Part shown: in pieces, positions 17,962-24,307 of the stretch
How the letters are laid out: every line of letters starts with the position of its first letter
Numbering within the stretch: the stretch's first letter is position 1
DNA from: Lachnospiraceae bacterium
Lineage (GTDB): Bacteria; Bacillota; Clostridia; Lachnospirales; Lachnospiraceae
Assembly (NCBI GenBank): GCA_017500935.1
Contig: JAFVXW010000046.1
Coordinates: forward strand, 1 to 64,000
Direction: 5' to 3'
Length of the DNA: 64,000 bases
Translations under genes and position numbers: made by a program
Notes under the pieces: model-generated
Database searches by the model: none
What the model was told of the DNA's origin: nothing
What the model saw: only the letters and a program-made list of their open reading frames with translations

Positions 17962-20130
17962 TTAATCTGCTTTCTTTTCAGCTTTCGGCACAAATTTCTG
18001 GCGAAGAATAAACCACATTGCACCGGTCAGGCAAACGGAGGAATATCCGCCGCACACAATACCTACCATCAAAGGAAGCGCAAATTCCTTGACACTGGAA
18101 ACGCCCAGCACATACAGTGCAGCAACCATAACGAAAGTGGTAAAAGAGGTGAAAATACTTCTGCTGAGAGTCTGTGTCACACTCATGTTAACAATATCCT
18201 TCAGATCAGCTCTCTCATTTTCCAGAAGATTCTCACGTACACGGTCGAAGATAACGATCGTCGCATTGATGGAGTAACCTACAATGGTCAGCATACATGC
18301 GATAAAGGTATTGCCGACAGATACTTTTGCAGCTGCATAGAACGCAAGTACAACAAGCACATCATGCACCAGCGCAGCCACACTGCTGGCACCGAAACGG
18401 AAATCCTTGAATCTGAACCAGATATAGATCAGCATACATACTGTGGAAACCAAAACAGCCTTAATGGCACTTGCTTTCATTTCAGATCCGATGGTGGAGC
18501 TGATGGTTTCTGCCGTGATCTTATTCTCATCCACACCAAACTGCTCAGCGAGAGCTTTATTCAGTTCTTCTCTCTGTTCCACAGACATGGTGATTGTCTT
18601 AAAGATAACTTCCTTGGTACCCTGTACCTTCTGTGTCTGGACATTGGCATCCTTTGCGATCTCTTCGATCACAGGCACCACCTTTTCATCCAGTTCTTCA
18701 ATGCTCATATCCTCTTCAAATGTTACATTGGCTGCGGTACCGCCCATAAATTCCAGAGAATAATTCAGTCCCTTGCCGGTGGACACTTTGTTGACGCCCA
18801 TGAACACAAAACCGCCGATGATCAGTACAGCAGAAACTGCAAAAAACAGAGTTTTTCTGGAAAGAAAATCAATCTGTTTTCTGTTCTTGGCACGGCCATA
18901 AAACTTTTCAGAGGTAAAACCAATTTCATAGAAAGCATACATAAGCACTCTTGTGATAACCAGTGCAGTAAACATGGACAGTACAATACCAAGCGCCAGT
19001 GTCTGCGCAAAGCCCTTGATGGTACCGGTTCCCATAAATCCAAGCACTGCTGCTGCGATCAGAGTGGTGATATTTCCGTCAAAGATTGCAGAAAATGCCT
19101 TCTGATAACCGCTCTTGATGGAGTAACGGATGGTCTTTCCTGTTGCAATCTCTTCTCTGATACGTGCAAAAATAATAACATTGGCATCCACCGCCATACC
19201 GATGGACAGAATAATACCTGCAATACCGGGAAGTGTCAGGGTCATATCAAAGCCATATAACAAAATAACCATCATTGCGGTATAAATAATCAGTGCCAGA
19301 GAGCTTGCCACACCGGGGATCCAGTAGATCGCAATCATAAACAGCATGACAATTCCCAGACCGATCGCACCGGCAATAAGGCTTGTCTTAATTGCTGCGG
19401 AACCAAGCTGTGCGCCTACCACATTGGAACGCAGCTCTTCCAGTTCCAGCTTCAGGCCGCCGATACGGATGGTGGAAGCCAGTCTGTCAGCAGCTTCAAA
19501 AGTTCCCATACCGGAAATGATCGCGCTGCCGTTGGCAATTTCATCATTTACAGCAGGAGCGCTTACAATCTGACCATCATAAATGATATAAATAATATCT
19601 CTGTTGGGAGCAGCTTTTCTGGTCGCTTCCGCAAATTTCTTTGTTCCTTCTTCGTTTAAGGTAAGCTGTACCACAGCCATCTGATTGCCCATATTATCCT
19701 GGGTATAACCAGCCTGTGCATCAGAAACCTCTGTACCGGTCAGCACTACATTGCCGTCCTTATCCTGGAAAACCAAAGAACCAGGCTTACCGAGTTCTTC
19801 CAGAATCGCATTTGCATCGGATACACCGGGAATCTCGATATTGATACGGTCATCGCCTTCCTGATAAACCTGCGCCTCTGTGGAATAACCGTCCACACGC
19901 TGCTGCAGTTTAAAAATGGTGTCACCCATATCAGCAGCATCCGGAATTTCTTCTCCGACTACCTGATAAGTGATGCTCACACCGCCTGCCAGATCCAGAC
20001 CCAGCTTAACACTGGACGCAGAACCGGCCTTATCAGCACCGACACCACAGACAGCCAGATAAATGCATCCTGCCATCACAAGAAGCATGGCTGCCAAAAT
20101 TGCAAAACCTTTCTTTTTGTTTGTCTTCAT
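17962..20130 (-). CDS. secDF: Protein translocase subunit SecDF (fused)
   Basis: 722 residues. The SecD half has LGLDLAGGVSITYQV after the first membrane segment, a large external P1 domain and five more segments; the SecF half begins near residue 430 and has LNYSLEFMGGTAANV. Each half carries the conserved proton-channel segments. It assists Sec-dependent export with the proton gradient (family knowledge). The ATG chosen has AAGGAG 8 bases upstream; one two codons earlier is too close to it. It begins 12 bases after the SCIFF-maturase-like gene, so they are co-transcribed. Confidence 0.95.
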   Translation of the reverse strand: MKTNKKKGFAILAAMLLVMAGCIYLAVCGVGADKAGSASSVKLGLDLAGGVSITYQVVGEEIPDAADMGDTIFKLQQRVDGYSTEAQVYQEGDDRINIEIPGVSDANAILEELGKPGSLVFQDKDGNVVLTGTEVSDAQAGYTQDNMGNQMAVVQLTLNEEGTKKFAEATRKAAPNRDIIYIIYDGQIVSAPAVNDEIANGSAIISGMGTFEAADRLASTIRIGGLKLELEELRSNVVGAQLGSAAIKTSLIAGAIGLGIVMLFMIAIYWIPGVASSLALIIYTAMMVILLYGFDMTLTLPGIAGIILSIGMAVDANVIIFARIREEIATGKTIRYSIKSGYQKAFSAIFDGNITTLIAAAVLGFMGTGTIKGFAQTLALGIVLSMFTALVITRVLMYAFYEIGFTSEKFYGRAKNRKQIDFLSRKTLFFAVSAVLIIGGFVFMGVNKVSTGKGLNYSLEFMGGTAANVTFEEDMSIEELDEKVVPVIEEIAKDANVQTQKVQGTKEVIFKTITMSVEQREELNKALAEQFGVDENKITAETISSTIGSEMKASAIKAVLVSTVCMLIYIWFRFKDFRFGASSVAALVHDVLVVLAFYAAAKVSVGNTFIACMLTIVGYSINATIVIFDRVRENLLENERADLKDIVNMSVTQTLSRSIFTSFTTFVMVAALYVLGVSSVKEFALPLMVGIVCGGYSSVCLTGAMWFILRQKFVPKAEKKAD

Positions 20131-20142
20131 TATCATTACTCC

Positions 20143-20844
20143 TTATTTATCTTCGTCTGCCAAAGCAGCTTTGATCATAATCGCATATTCCACACATTTC
20201 TTATACCGTTCGCACTCAGGTTCGTGAATACTCTGGGATTCATCATATCCCCCTTCATTCTGAAATCTGTCGCCGCTGCAATAATATCTTGCAAAACACT
20301 TTCTGCATTTTTCCGGCATTGTTTTTCCGGAGAGCACATCCGACTCACAGCCTTTTTGAAAATCCGGCTCTCTTTCAGAACCCTTTTGTTTAAGCTCTGC
20401 AATCAGCTCCAAAGCAGCCTCACCATAATAGTTCACATGCTGCAATTCCTCTGCATGACATGCCTTGTGCGCTTCTGCACAGACTTTTTGGCGGACCTGT
20501 TCTGCTATTGTCATAACCTGCCGTGCAAATACCTGATCAGAATGCTGATGCAAATGTATCTGTTCCTGTACCGGATGAACAATAGGATCTTCTGCGAATA
20601 AAATACCTCTTTCTGCCAGAGAAATAACTTCTCCCACAGCTTCTGTCACCTCACGATGTGAAAACGGCAGTTCCTGTAAAGTCTCTACCGCGATCGTTAC
20701 AGTATCCACATCCCGTATTCCCGCGCTCACCAGCTGCTGCGCCAGCGGGATCACCTCGTAAACGATATCATCAACCACATGTACGCTGCCGCTGCTGATA
20801 TCCATTACGATATTATAACCGTTATTTTTATACCGGTGTATCAC
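20143..20844 (-). CDS. SCIFF-maturase-like protein lacking the radical-SAM core
   Basis: 233 residues from a GTG with AAAGG 9 bases upstream. The N-terminal 88 residues (HRYKNNGYNIVMDISSGSVH, then VVDDIVYEVI) match the leader-binding N-terminus of SCIFF-peptide maturases (CteB/ScfB type, normally about 450 residues). The C-terminal 60 (GKTMPEKCRKCFARYYC ... AIMIKAALADE) match their SPASM-like Cys-rich end. The roughly 220-residue radical-SAM barrel with CxxxCxxC is absent, replaced by about 85 helical, His/Gln-rich residues. Eight Cys remain (122, 129, 166, 180, 183, 189, 211, 217); the fourth Cys of the SPASM run is replaced (CSGDR for CSGGC). The frame is intact, so this is not a simple wreck. 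Its place before secDF is the family's normal one. It cannot form radical-SAM chemistry alone; it may bind leader or be a relic. Confidence 0.8.
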   Translation of the reverse strand: MIHRYKNNGYNIVMDISSGSVHVVDDIVYEVIPLAQQLVSAGIRDVDTVTIAVETLQELPFSHREVTEAVGEVISLAERGILFAEDPIVHPVQEQIHLHQHSDQVFARQVMTIAEQVRQKVCAEAHKACHAEELQHVNYYGEAALELIAELKQKGSEREPDFQKGCESDVLSGKTMPEKCRKCFARYYCSGDRFQNEGGYDESQSIHEPECERYKKCVEYAIMIKAALADEDK

Positions 20845-20896
20845 TGAATATTTCCTTTCATGATCTCCAGTCCACCCGACTGCTTCAACACATAAT

Positions 20897-20920
20897 AAGC
20901 AGCGACTCACATCGCTGCTT
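20897..20920 (-). terminator. Hairpin between SCIFF-like precursor and maturase-like gene
   Basis: Perfect 9-bp stem AAGCAGCGA / TCGCTGCTT with a 6-base loop, followed only by TATTATG, so it is a weak terminator or an RNA stabiliser. In precursor-peptide loci such a hairpin usually lets precursor mRNA exceed enzyme mRNA. Confidence 0.55.
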
Positions 20921-20950
20921 ACAGATTCTTTGCTACAGTTGAATGACTGG

Positions 20951-21088
20951 TTAACTTACCTTCTCACAGCTATTGTTTTCCGCACAGGAAATAACGTCTG
21001 CCGACGGCTTGGAAGACGGGGATTCATGACTGCTGATCTCCCACAGATCTTTCACACTTCCTGTCGTTAAAGTTTTGATGTGTTTCAT
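20951..21088 (-). CDS. SCIFF-like precursor peptide (45 residues, two Cys)
   Basis: A 45-residue frame beginning MKHIKTL, the conserved start of SCIFF (six Cys in forty-five) precursors, and of the same total length. Only two cysteines remain, near the end (ISCAENNSCEKVS, positions 35 and 41); the middle is Ser/Pro-rich instead of Cys-rich. GAGGGAGG lies about 8 bases before the ATG and a promoter-like extended -10 lies 63 bases upstream. Gene order (membrane protein, precursor, maturase, secDF) is the usual one. It is a real expressed-looking gene, but whether it is modified, and by what, is unknown. Confidence 0.75.
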   Translation of the reverse strand: MKHIKTLTTGSVKDLWEISSHESPSSKPSADVISCAENNSCEKVS

Positions 21089-21150
21089 CAATACGGCCTC
21101 CCTCTCATTTCAGTCGCAACACAACATTCTTATCACATAAAACTCCAAAC

Positions 21151-21179
21151 AGTATACCATATTTTTTATGACAGGAAAA
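21151..21179 (-). promoter_or_regulatory. Candidate promoter of the SCIFF-like/secDF operon
   Basis: Extended -10 TGGTATACT (TATACT at 21151-21156, minus strand) with a poor -35 (TTTTCC) 17 bases upstream. It would give a leader of about 56 bases before the 45-residue peptide. Confidence 0.45.
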
Positions 21180-21207
21180 GTCTTTTTTTACTTAATTTTG
21201 TATTTTA

Positions 21208-21594
21208 TCAGGAAATCATACCTCCCAGCATGCCGCTGCCTGCACAGATCATCCATGTTGTAAAAAAATGGGAACCAAAATCGGTAAACTCCTGCTTTAC
21301 CACCGCTGTCATGCATACCAGTACCAGAAAATAAAAAGTACCGGAAAGCAGTCCCCACATAAAGCGCCGGACCTGTACACATTTACCGGCAATCAGCCCT
21401 GCCAAAAGACCAGACAGCATATACACAATCAATACTGCTGTCGCAAGCACCGTATTTTCCAGTTCCAGCCTGTACATCAGCAATGCCAGAAGTAAAATGC
21501 CTCCTGCCGTCAGAAGATATGCTGCTGCAAGACTTTTTATCAGTCCGACAGCTGGTTTTGTCTGCGTATTTCGCAATTTAGTGCCTCGTTCCAT
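21208..21594 (-). CDS. YrzE/TIGR04086 family membrane protein
   Basis: 128 residues with four predicted membrane segments and short loops, matching the TIGR04086 (YrzE-like) family often found near yajC/secDF in Firmicutes. Start ATG with AAAGGAGG. The function is unknown. It precedes the SCIFF-like precursor in the same direction with 119 bases between, so it may share its chromosomal neighbourhood rather than its transcript. Confidence 0.72.
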   Translation of the reverse strand: MERGTKLRNTQTKPAVGLIKSLAAAYLLTAGGILLLALLMYRLELENTVLATAVLIVYMLSGLLAGLIAGKCVQVRRFMWGLLSGTFYFLVLVCMTAVVKQEFTDFGSHFFTTWMICAGSGMLGGMIS

Positions 21595-21653
21595 ACCCGT
21601 TCCTCCTTTGGAACATCCTATTCGGATACAGGCAAAAACTTGACACTTCCTCT

Positions 21654-22361
21654 TTATTTATTTTGAATACACACGGAAAGATAATACTTTCCCTCCTCCG
21701 TATACTCTTTCACCGCTGCATCCGGAAATTCTGCTCTCCGGTCTTTTACGGTCAATCCTGCATCTGTCTGTGCCTTCTGAATCAGTATTCGATCAAATCC
21801 CATGGTCATTCCCTGTCCGGTCAGCTTCATATAGCTTTCCTTCACAGTCCACTGACGCAAAAATGCATCCTGCGCAGCAGAATTTAAATAGACCTCATCC
21901 GGTTTGCAGCCATATACTTCCAGAAACGCTTTTCGTTGGTTTTCATCAAAAAAATGTTTCAAAATCCCTGTTCTGACCTTTTGCGGCCTTTGAATATCTA
22001 TGCCGACAGGCTTGTCGCATACGGCACAAACCGCATAATCTCCCGAATGGGAAAGACTGATATAAACAGACTCTCCGGATACAACCGGTGCACCGCGATC
22101 TGTATAGCCAATCTCACACTCTGCATATCCTGCAGACTTTAACGCATATTCTGCCAGAAATCCCACCGCCAGACAGGCAGCTTTGGCAGATGTATGCTTA
22201 CAGCGGTCCGCTTTTTTCTGCCGCGCAGGCGGCAGACGGTCATACACCGCCTGCTGCAGTTTTTCATCATATAATGGCCGGATATCTGCCAGATATATCT
22301 TGTAATATTCCCTGTTTTTCATAGTTTCTGCCGTCTGTTTTTGATCCCCCGGCTTTTTCAC
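21654..22361 (-). CDS. 4'-phosphopantetheinyl transferase, Sfp type
   Basis: 235 residues with the family signatures SLSHSGDYAVCAV, VGIDIQ (Mg-binding Asp) and WTVKESYMKLTGQG. It moves phosphopantetheine from CoA to a carrier protein (family knowledge). The Sfp class usually serves NRPS/PKS carriers, but none is in this window, so its partner is elsewhere or is the fatty-acid ACP. The GTG start overlaps the stop of the lysozyme gene (GTGA); the ATG at 22322 (MKNREYYKIYLADI) is an alternative closer to the family's usual N-terminus. Confidence 0.88.
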   Translation of the reverse strand: MKKPGDQKQTAETMKNREYYKIYLADIRPLYDEKLQQAVYDRLPPARQKKADRCKHTSAKAACLAVGFLAEYALKSAGYAECEIGYTDRGAPVVSGESVYISLSHSGDYAVCAVCDKPVGIDIQRPQKVRTGILKHFFDENQRKAFLEVYGCKPDEVYLNSAAQDAFLRQWTVKESYMKLTGQGMTMGFDRILIQKAQTDAGLTVKDRRAEFPDAAVKEYTEEGKYYLSVCIQNK

Positions 22362-24307
22362 TGTGCATCCACCAGATAATTGCTTACCGCATACAAAATC
22401 TGGCCGTTATAATTCACCTTTGTCCAGCCTTTGTCTTTATCCACAGCAATACGGACAGCTGTCGCACCGCCGGAAAGCTGTGCCGCAACCTGTGACGGTT
22501 CATTGGTCGTCGGAAGCGTCCGCAAATTGGTCACATCCTTGGCTTTTACATTGCCGGATGCCGCTGTAAAATGAAATCCTGCTTCCGGATTCTCTGCCGT
22601 GGGTTTTTCCTGATTTTTATAATCCATGCTTGTTGCCAGCAGACGCGAGGATGCGTACACCACCTGACCGTTTACCTCAAGTCTGGACCATCCTGTGTCG
22701 GCACTGCCGCTGATGCCGGTTCTTACCACCGCTTCTCCGTAGCTTAATACTCCAACCACATTACCGGTCTCTGTGCTGGGTTTATCGCGCAGATTTACCT
22801 TATCTCTGGCGGTAACAGCTTCGGCAACCGCTGTAAAGGTCATTCCTTCCACCACATCCGTTTTCTGGGGCTGCTGGCTTTGTGAACCGCCGCCGGACTG
22901 CTGTGGTGTCAGATCCGTGATCAGATACTGATGAACTGCATAAACAGTCTGTCCGTTCCAGATCAGTCTGTCCCATCCGTTGGAGCCGATACCGGTACGC
23001 TGTACCACTTCTCCGTTTTTTAACAGATGTACCACCTGACTCTCCTGGGTACTGGGAATGCTGCGCAGGTTCGTTTCATTTTTGGCTGTTACCTGTTCGT
23101 TTACCTCCGTAAAATCGATGCCTGTTTCCGGATTGGCTTTTACCTCTTCTGCCGGTGTCTGGTCCTTTGCCTGCGCTTCCTGGGAATAGCCAAAATACGC
23201 CACATTAATATCTACATTGCCCTTGATGCCGTACACTTTTCCTTTACTGGTATACTGCCACATGGCATGCACACCGCTGTAAGTGGAAGCAGGTGTTTCC
23301 GGAAACGGCTTGTCCGGATATTGGGATACCCATACTTTATATCTGCTGCCCAGCCTGCTCATATCCCACTGCGCGCTGTTCTCCATTTCATTGCGGGAAG
23401 CGTAAAACATAGGCGTATATCCTCTTGCTGCAATGGTATCCAGAAACGCACATGCAAGCGCAGATCTTTTTTCTTTGCTCAATGTATACTGACGGCTTTC
23501 CGGAGAATTGAATCCCTCACAGTTAAAGGCCACCGGATAAGTAATCTTATATTTGGAAATAAAATCCGCAACCCAGTTTGCTTCTTCGATTGCTTCTGCC
23601 TCTGTCACAGCCGTGGAAAAAAAGTACGCACCCACTTTAAGTCCGTTCTTTGTCGCTTCCTGCAGATTATACCGGGCTCCTGCATCTTCTTTGATCAAGC
23701 CGGACTCAGTCGTGCGGTATCCCACACGCACAATGGCAAAATCCACGCCGGCAGTTGCAACAGCCGCCCAGTCAATATTACCCTGATATTTGGAAACATC
23801 AATTCCAAGTGTTGCGTCCTTGGTTTCCGTATCCGCAGGTTTCACCGTGCTGATATCCACAACAGCTCCGGTTTCTGCTTCCTGATTTGTTTTGGTGGAT
23901 TCCTGCGGATCCTGAGCATCGTCACTACTTTCTGTATCCGGGGCTGCCGCAGATTCCGGCGGCTGTGTCTGCTCTGTGATCTGGGGGGCTGATTCTGTCT
24001 CCTGATCAGGCTGCTGTGTCTGCTGGTCAGTTTCCTGTTCCTGCATTTCCGGAGTTGTTTCGGTTTCTGCAGGCTCTGCTGCAGATTCCTGTACGGTCTG
24101 TTCATCCGCTTTTTCCGTATTCTGCCCTTCTTTTGCATCTTCCTGATCTATCTGTGTCTGCACAGACACGACCTCTTCTTTTTTTTCATCCTGAAACACC
24201 CAGAAAATCAAAAGTATCAGCAATAAAGCTGCAATAAATACAGATGCAGCGATCAGCAACGGTTCGTATTGACGCAGATTTTTACGTTTTCTTTTCTTTT
24301 TTGCCAT
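22358..24307 (-). CDS. GH25 lysozyme with membrane anchor and three SH3 domains
   Basis: 649 residues: basic start, one membrane segment (15-38), a long Glu/Gln/Thr-rich linker (40-165), a GH25 muramidase domain (about 166-375, starting GIDVSKYQGNIDW) and three bacterial SH3 repeats (about 400-465, 490-555, 580-645). The GH25 Asp-x-Glu pair reads Asn262-Cys-Glu264, so one expected Asp is Asn while the acid Glu and Asp170 are kept. It is an anchored wall hydrolase facing outward. Start ATG with GAGGTGG. Confidence 0.92.
   Translation of the reverse strand: MAKKKRKRKNLRQYEPLLIAASVFIAALLLILLIFWVFQDEKKEEVVSVQTQIDQEDAKEGQNTEKADEQTVQESAAEPAETETTPEMQEQETDQQTQQPDQETESAPQITEQTQPPESAAAPDTESSDDAQDPQESTKTNQEAETGAVVDISTVKPADTETKDATLGIDVSKYQGNIDWAAVATAGVDFAIVRVGYRTTESGLIKEDAGARYNLQEATKNGLKVGAYFFSTAVTEAEAIEEANWVADFISKYKITYPVAFNCEGFNSPESRQYTLSKEKRSALACAFLDTIAARGYTPMFYASRNEMENSAQWDMSRLGSRYKVWVSQYPDKPFPETPASTYSGVHAMWQYTSKGKVYGIKGNVDINVAYFGYSQEAQAKDQTPAEEVKANPETGIDFTEVNEQVTAKNETNLRSIPSTQESQVVHLLKNGEVVQRTGIGSNGWDRLIWNGQTVYAVHQYLITDLTPQQSGGGSQSQQPQKTDVVEGMTFTAVAEAVTARDKVNLRDKPSTETGNVVGVLSYGEAVVRTGISGSADTGWSRLEVNGQVVYASSRLLATSMDYKNQEKPTAENPEAGFHFTAASGNVKAKDVTNLRTLPTTNEPSQVAAQLSGGATAVRIAVDKDKGWTKVNYNGQILYAVSNYLVDAQ

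Follow-up and report, generated by a model that had tools for sequence, protein, structure and literature searches.

What does a SCIFF maturase homologue do once the catalytic core of the enzyme is gone? To our knowledge the role of SCIFF peptides is itself largely open, and a locus in which the substrate persists beside a reduced enzyme bears directly on it. The available part of PMC8326336 describes SCIFF peptides as widespread among Clostridia, and according to the accessible text of PMC5300114 every SCIFF precursor should have an accompanying maturase. The known enzyme (TIGR03974; CteB of Clostridium thermocellum, PDB 5wgg/5why) has an N-terminal leader-binding domain and a C-terminal SPASM tail, and its gene stands, in 12 fetched relatives, with the SCIFF peptide on one side and secDF on the other. 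The protein described here, encoded in a stretch of 64,000 nucleotides that we refer to as the window, shares both ends and this position, but lacks the radical-SAM core with its CxxxCxxC motif, has an incomplete set of SPASM cysteines and carries an orphan middle of 90 residues. Titles and abstract openings from the SCIFF/ranthipeptide literature, among the matches listed, describe no SCIFF maturase without its core.

A maturase homologue reduced to its two ends

The gene occupies positions 20143-20844 on the minus strand and is open from a GTG start through 233 codons in all to its stop, in agreement with the intact frame reported in a preliminary description of this DNA. The GTG start is common to this gene and to the maturases of all 12 compared relatives, and the good ribosome site noted in that description corresponds to a site of AAGG type ahead of the GTG, as judged by eye. 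That the protein is a SCIFF maturase homologue with its core missing also holds, since TIGR03974 and 5wgg/5why match the two ends only. NCBIfam TIGR03974 gives 88.8 bits, with the best stretch at profile positions 1-118, and the whole protein does not reach the family cut-off of 425 bits; when the genome is searched with the same profile, the gene appears in two pieces (profile 1-118 and 401-451). The solved maturase aligns with two stretches of the query, residues 1-89 and 176-225 in a numbering that omits the start residue. A profile built from 95 maturases places a C block at residues 178-232 and an N block that is stretched to residue 145, although residues 1-87 alone give the entire N score of 97.0 bits. 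We divide the protein into parts of 87, 90 and 56 residues, so the sizes given earlier (88, 85 and 60) are about right. Neither the CxxxCxxC motif nor the radical-SAM barrel is present in the 233 residues.

The N-terminal, RRE-like leader-binding domain (residues 1-87; 20584-20844, minus strand) is assigned by sequence, through TIGR03974, the 95-maturase profile, 5wgg/5why and its conserved columns. Of 86 aligned residues it shares 63 with the relative G003, and three other relatives share 67-70 with G003. The window protein keeps 24 of the 27 N-domain columns that are at least 90% conserved (the median relative keeps 27); four of these lie beyond residue 87, two kept and two not, and with them excluded residues 1-87 keep 22 of 23. 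The C-terminal remnant of the SPASM part (residues 178-233 plus the stop; 20143-20313, minus strand) has diverged further, with 30 of 52 residues identical to G003 against 47-51 of 52 in three other relatives. It keeps 18 of 30 conserved columns, and the 12 lost include two cysteine columns, at residues 193 and 220, which are Arg and Tyr and leave the SPASM cysteine set incomplete. A related N-domain is found in the ScfB-related orphan maturase NF040492 ('not_ScfB'; 47.7 bits), which differs in being, by its description, a radical-SAM/SPASM maturase with a model length of 450.

The segment that replaces the radical-SAM core (residues 88-177; 20314-20583, minus strand) is rich in His, Gln, Glu and Ala. 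Its score against the 95-maturase profile is not above that of shuffles, it has no Pfam match and no match in 397 sampled family genomes other than its own, its best E values are 0.02 in PHROGs and 0.42 among PDB sequences, and its own genome holds no second copy. Its codon periodicity is strong (chi2 37; none of 5000 shuffles as high), and its codon score is low, at the 5.5th percentile of the window's real genes, a level reached by 0.4% of wrong-frame stretches. This middle without a recognisable relative appears to be coding.

Two readings of the middle in terms of the enzyme core were tried and not adopted. The profile alignment and MAFFT both set C122-x3-H126-x2-C129 on CxxxCxxC, as would a modified cluster motif CxxxHxxC, and BLAST matches extend through it to residue 144. 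Shuffled middles reach the true score in 1779 of 2000 cases for the whole protein, 263 of 2000 for the best domain and 64 of 2000 for the middle alone; because they score equally well, we do not claim the motif. Nor do the other five frames give the match expected if the middle were a core remnant altered by frameshift or point mutation. Comparison of the middle's DNA with nine relatives, in which 7 to 111 of 200 codon shuffles are equally good, and profile alignment at six settings (2, 7, 22, 23, 36 and 60 of 150 shuffles equally good) give weak hints only.

The adjacent peptide lacks the mapped thioether residues

The preliminary description was silent on the degenerate core of the adjacent peptide; the loss affects the peptide as well as the enzyme. 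This SCIFF-derived peptide of 45 residues (20951-21088, minus strand) ends 106 bases ahead of the start of the maturase homologue. It shares with the SCIFF precursor (TIGR03973; CteA) its length, its position, alignable DNA, the C-terminal SCEK and the leader MKHIKTLTT, in which all nine residues are identical to those of G003. It differs in its core, where four of six cysteines are lost and two are left, and it is missed by the family model in a TIGR03973 search. The positions of Cys32, Thr34 and Thr37 align with Asp, Ile and Ala, respectively. In characterised SCIFFs Cys32 is the thioether donor and Thr34 or Thr37 the acceptor, according to the available portion of PMC8326336. The core DNA can be aligned to all five relatives tested, none of 200 shuffles being as good for each, and the core has therefore changed mainly by substitution.

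Among the other distinct SCIFF peptides that we collected with a pattern demanding at least five cysteines, which places degenerate peptides beyond reach, 78 of 79 fit a single fixed six-cysteine core pattern. The exception (L135, from G031, with the same gene order) has Ser in place of Cys32 and of Thr37, and its neighbour is a maturase-like frame with 463 codons or more. As a separate observation, the maturases at L150, L151 and L152 (G008, G012 and G010) have an insertion of about 20-40 residues within the N-domain, and the SCIFF peptides at these loci read GGCMEC rather than GGCGEC.

The state of the peptide bears on the possibility that the short protein acts in trans, in the manner of PqqD, by handing the peptide over to another enzyme for modification. 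In other RiPP pathways discrete RRE proteins have this function, as described in the accessible part of PMC7470986, which gives their size as less than 100 residues. The window protein resembles PqqD and others of this kind in that it would bind a leader peptide without chemistry; it differs in having 233 residues, in its derivation by loss from a fused enzyme, and in that the SPASM search found no partner enzyme. That search of its own genome returned two hits. One lies beside a sulfatase and is presumably, by reading, of the sulfatase-maturase type, and the other resembles, in length and score alone, hits in G005, G007 and G015 (three of the five relatives searched). A radical-SAM hit on contig C82 was considered as an intact maturase and rejected, as it adjoins a sulfatase and we take it, again by reading, to be of the sulfatase-maturase type. 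As no SPASM enzyme of the genome stands out as a partner in this search, and donor and acceptor residues are gone from the peptide, we regard delivery to a separate enzyme as very improbable, and the earlier suggestion that the protein works with one is left without support.

Conserved signals around the two genes

A promoter-like block (ACTTTTCC ... TATGGTATACT; 21151-21181, minus strand), picked by eye in an alignment of 12 relatives, lies upstream of the peptide; the block and the ribosome sites of both genes are kept, as judged by eye. Between the peptide and the protein gene, alignment identifies an intergenic RNA hairpin with a 12-bp stem (AUAAGCAGCGAU ... AUCGCUGCUUAU; 20895-20922, minus strand). 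Eleven of the 12 relatives (L142-L153) carry the same stem in the gap separating the peptide gene from the maturase gene, and in G011 we read an unrelated hairpin at the same spot. In the window the stem has undergone two A-to-G changes, each turning an A-U pair into G-U and so keeping the pairing; for 24 stem bases evolving neutrally 9.7 changes would be expected (P 0.0006). Rfam gave one sub-threshold hit on 19900-21700 (17.3 bits versus 103.4) and none at the hairpin. The hairpin may determine how much peptide is made relative to protein. In a neutral simulation the peptide core together with stretches of 90 and 55 codons stays free of stops in 0.2% of runs (P 0.002). Taken singly, the peptide core does so with a probability of 0.20 and the 90 codons with 0.036, so that the simulation convinces only for the stretches combined, and it starts from the G003 core, which need not be the source of the middle.

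The assembly is a draft of 87 contigs with 5.67% contamination, which raises the question of an assembly or sequencing artefact. We find this scarcely credible, as a joining error would not scatter point changes across the peptide core yet spare the leader and the hairpin, and the middle is an open, periodic frame without a second copy in the genome. We conclude that the locus of this one gut-type bacterium is real and intact, and that it is more than a simple relic.

Occurrence of the locus in relatives

Upstream of the SCIFF locus the window encodes a TIGR04086 membrane protein and, on the minus strand, frames that we take by reading to be a 4'-phosphopantetheinyl transferase-like protein (21654-22361) and a GH25-like lysozyme with SH3-like repeats (22358-24307). 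Downstream, secDF (17962-20136, minus strand) begins six bases from the 233-codon gene. The order peptide-maturase-secDF is identical in all 12 fetched relatives (11 congeners and G015), which confirms that the gene stands in the family's usual place before secDF.

The preliminary description had named as checks a search for an intact TIGR03974 copy in the genome and for the same 233-residue form in relatives. Nothing in the genome exceeds the TIGR03974 or TIGR03973 cut-off; as the assembly is 95% complete, a missed maturase copy is possible. Eleven of 12 congeners have a full maturase, in frames of 464-525 codons from stop to stop, and a SCIFF peptide above the family cut-off, and the twelfth (G002, 58% complete) has neither. 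TIGR03973 detects the peptide in 34 of 40 other relatives, including 23 of the 28 outside the genus. In the family sample, 365 of 397 genomes match the 233-residue protein. Among the roughly 150 matches listed there is no other short form save two frames of 363 and 317 codons, which we took as contig ends, and so the form sought in relatives did not appear; the 80 loci taken from named genome records all have matching frames of 445 codons or more.

We checked 20 of the 32 family genomes without a match (among them G081, G106, G108, G137 and G145). None has a TIGR03974 hit over the cut-off and no hit starts before profile position 30, so that maturase loss in these 20 seems complete, though most of the family keeps the system. 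The idea that sporulation is lost alongside SCIFF, taken from the part of PMC8102284 available, was rejected: all 12 genomes searched, this one included, score above the cut-off for the sporulation marker SpoIVA.

Selection on the window's branch

We fitted to 13 taxa a codon model in which the window's branch has an omega of its own, taking the branch length from secDF as a yardstick. Only columns free of gaps in all 13 taxa were used, 86 N and 52 C codons, and confidence ranges were computed with other parameters fixed. On this branch omega is 0.23 (0.21-0.26) for secDF, 0.32 (0.21-0.43) for the N-domain, 0.02 (0.005-0.18) for the leader, which has nine codons only, and 0.71 (0.48-0.99) for the C-tail. 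For the peptide core it is 1.28 (0.88-1.80), compared with 0.024 elsewhere on the tree. Within the N-domain, codons 1-30 have an omega of 0.12 and codons 31 onward are looser, at 0.49 (0.30-0.69). The yardstick itself evolves faster in the window's lineage (omega 0.23 versus 0.086 elsewhere on the tree).

Over four topologies the likelihood-ratio statistic is 19.3-21.7 for N-domain versus core and 18.0-18.4 for leader versus core. With a free branch length, N-domain and leader jointly give 0.15-0.18 versus 0.63-0.75 for the core (LRT 23.4-25.9); the core value is below 1, and part of the branch may therefore predate its release. Under a free length the LRT for the leader alone was negative, and for codons 31 onward the fit ended at its upper bound; in both cases the fixed-length and joint fits are quoted instead. 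On secDF, pairing the window's lineage with G003 (lnL -15689.4) or with G015 (-15689.2) fits equally well and the other two trees are worse by 16 to 21; with G015 as partner, omega is 0.39 for the N-domain and 1.45 for the core. Our main result, obtained in one lineage, is that the peptide core is near-unconstrained on this branch and the leader and N-domain are still constrained. Because the N-domain has drifted unlike the core, a simple joint death of substrate and enzyme is rejected, and so, in its simple sense, is the in-frame relic of the preliminary description, for which a Ka/Ks comparison such as this had been named as the check.

Selection might instead have acted solely on an open frame that lets ribosomes reach secDF six bases downstream. 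The coupling to secDF is tight, with a ribosome-site-like GGAG directly behind the stop of the 233-codon gene. Selection for an open frame predicts no conservation of amino acids, in conflict with the omega of the N-domain, and the leader sits in a separate frame upstream; we consider this explanation quite improbable.

The main rival is a staggered decay, in which the chemistry was lost first, N-domain and leader remained useful or selected along a portion of the branch, and the locus, without a present role, is now disappearing. It owes this standing to the fact that the form is found in one genome only and that binding is something we infer. The omega values of the C-tail and of N-domain codons 31 onward would agree with it, and the maturase seems to be gone entirely from other lineages of the family. 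Against it, neither frame is broken, the two ribosome sites and the hairpin are preserved, the middle keeps its codon periodicity, and a joint release of N-domain and core would give a shared omega, which is rejected (LRT 19-22). On balance we think staggered decay unlikely.

A proposed role in binding

The peptide core and the enzyme core are both without the residues needed for the reaction, and the leader, the N-domain and the intergenic hairpin have changed far less than the peptide core on the same branch. We propose, with somewhat better than even confidence, that the SCIFF locus gave up thioether chemistry and kept its recognition part, such that leader peptide and binding domain serve in a non-enzymatic role beside secDF. 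A function by binding is likely, judging from the sequence. In the available part of PMC8326336, the CteB leader forms a strand where helix 3 meets strand 3 of the N-domain. Like the leader in the CteB crystal structure, the MKHIKTLTT strand would still dock on the RRE-like N-domain. The orphan middle could be a new spacer or a new binding surface, and the complex would act through binding and nothing else, with a regulator or adaptor linked to its Sec operon as the most likely role. Of the three readings in the preliminary description, a leader-binding protein or regulator fits best, as one that we infer.

A regulatory role of the locus is not far-fetched given that, in C. beijerinckii with precursor and enzyme genes disrupted, sporulation genes are down and the agr locus is up (Chen 2020, via the accessible part of PMC8102284), effects that are silent on a role without chemistry. 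More specifically, and a little short of even confidence, the locus may be a two-part, catalysis-free binding system, in which the leader is the active portion of the peptide and the receptor combines the enzyme's old recognition domain with the new middle, the whole being selected beside the Sec translocase. Selection after the loss is read from one branch, because the form is known in one genome only.

The TIGR03973 and TIGR03974 cut-offs would score the window locus as a clean loss. A locus where substrate and enzyme have lost the chemistry and kept recognition separates two functions, and it offers a direct test of whether leader and binding domain act on their own. If the two-part reading is true, the contact between leader and domain in ordinary SCIFF systems may have a role beyond thioether formation.
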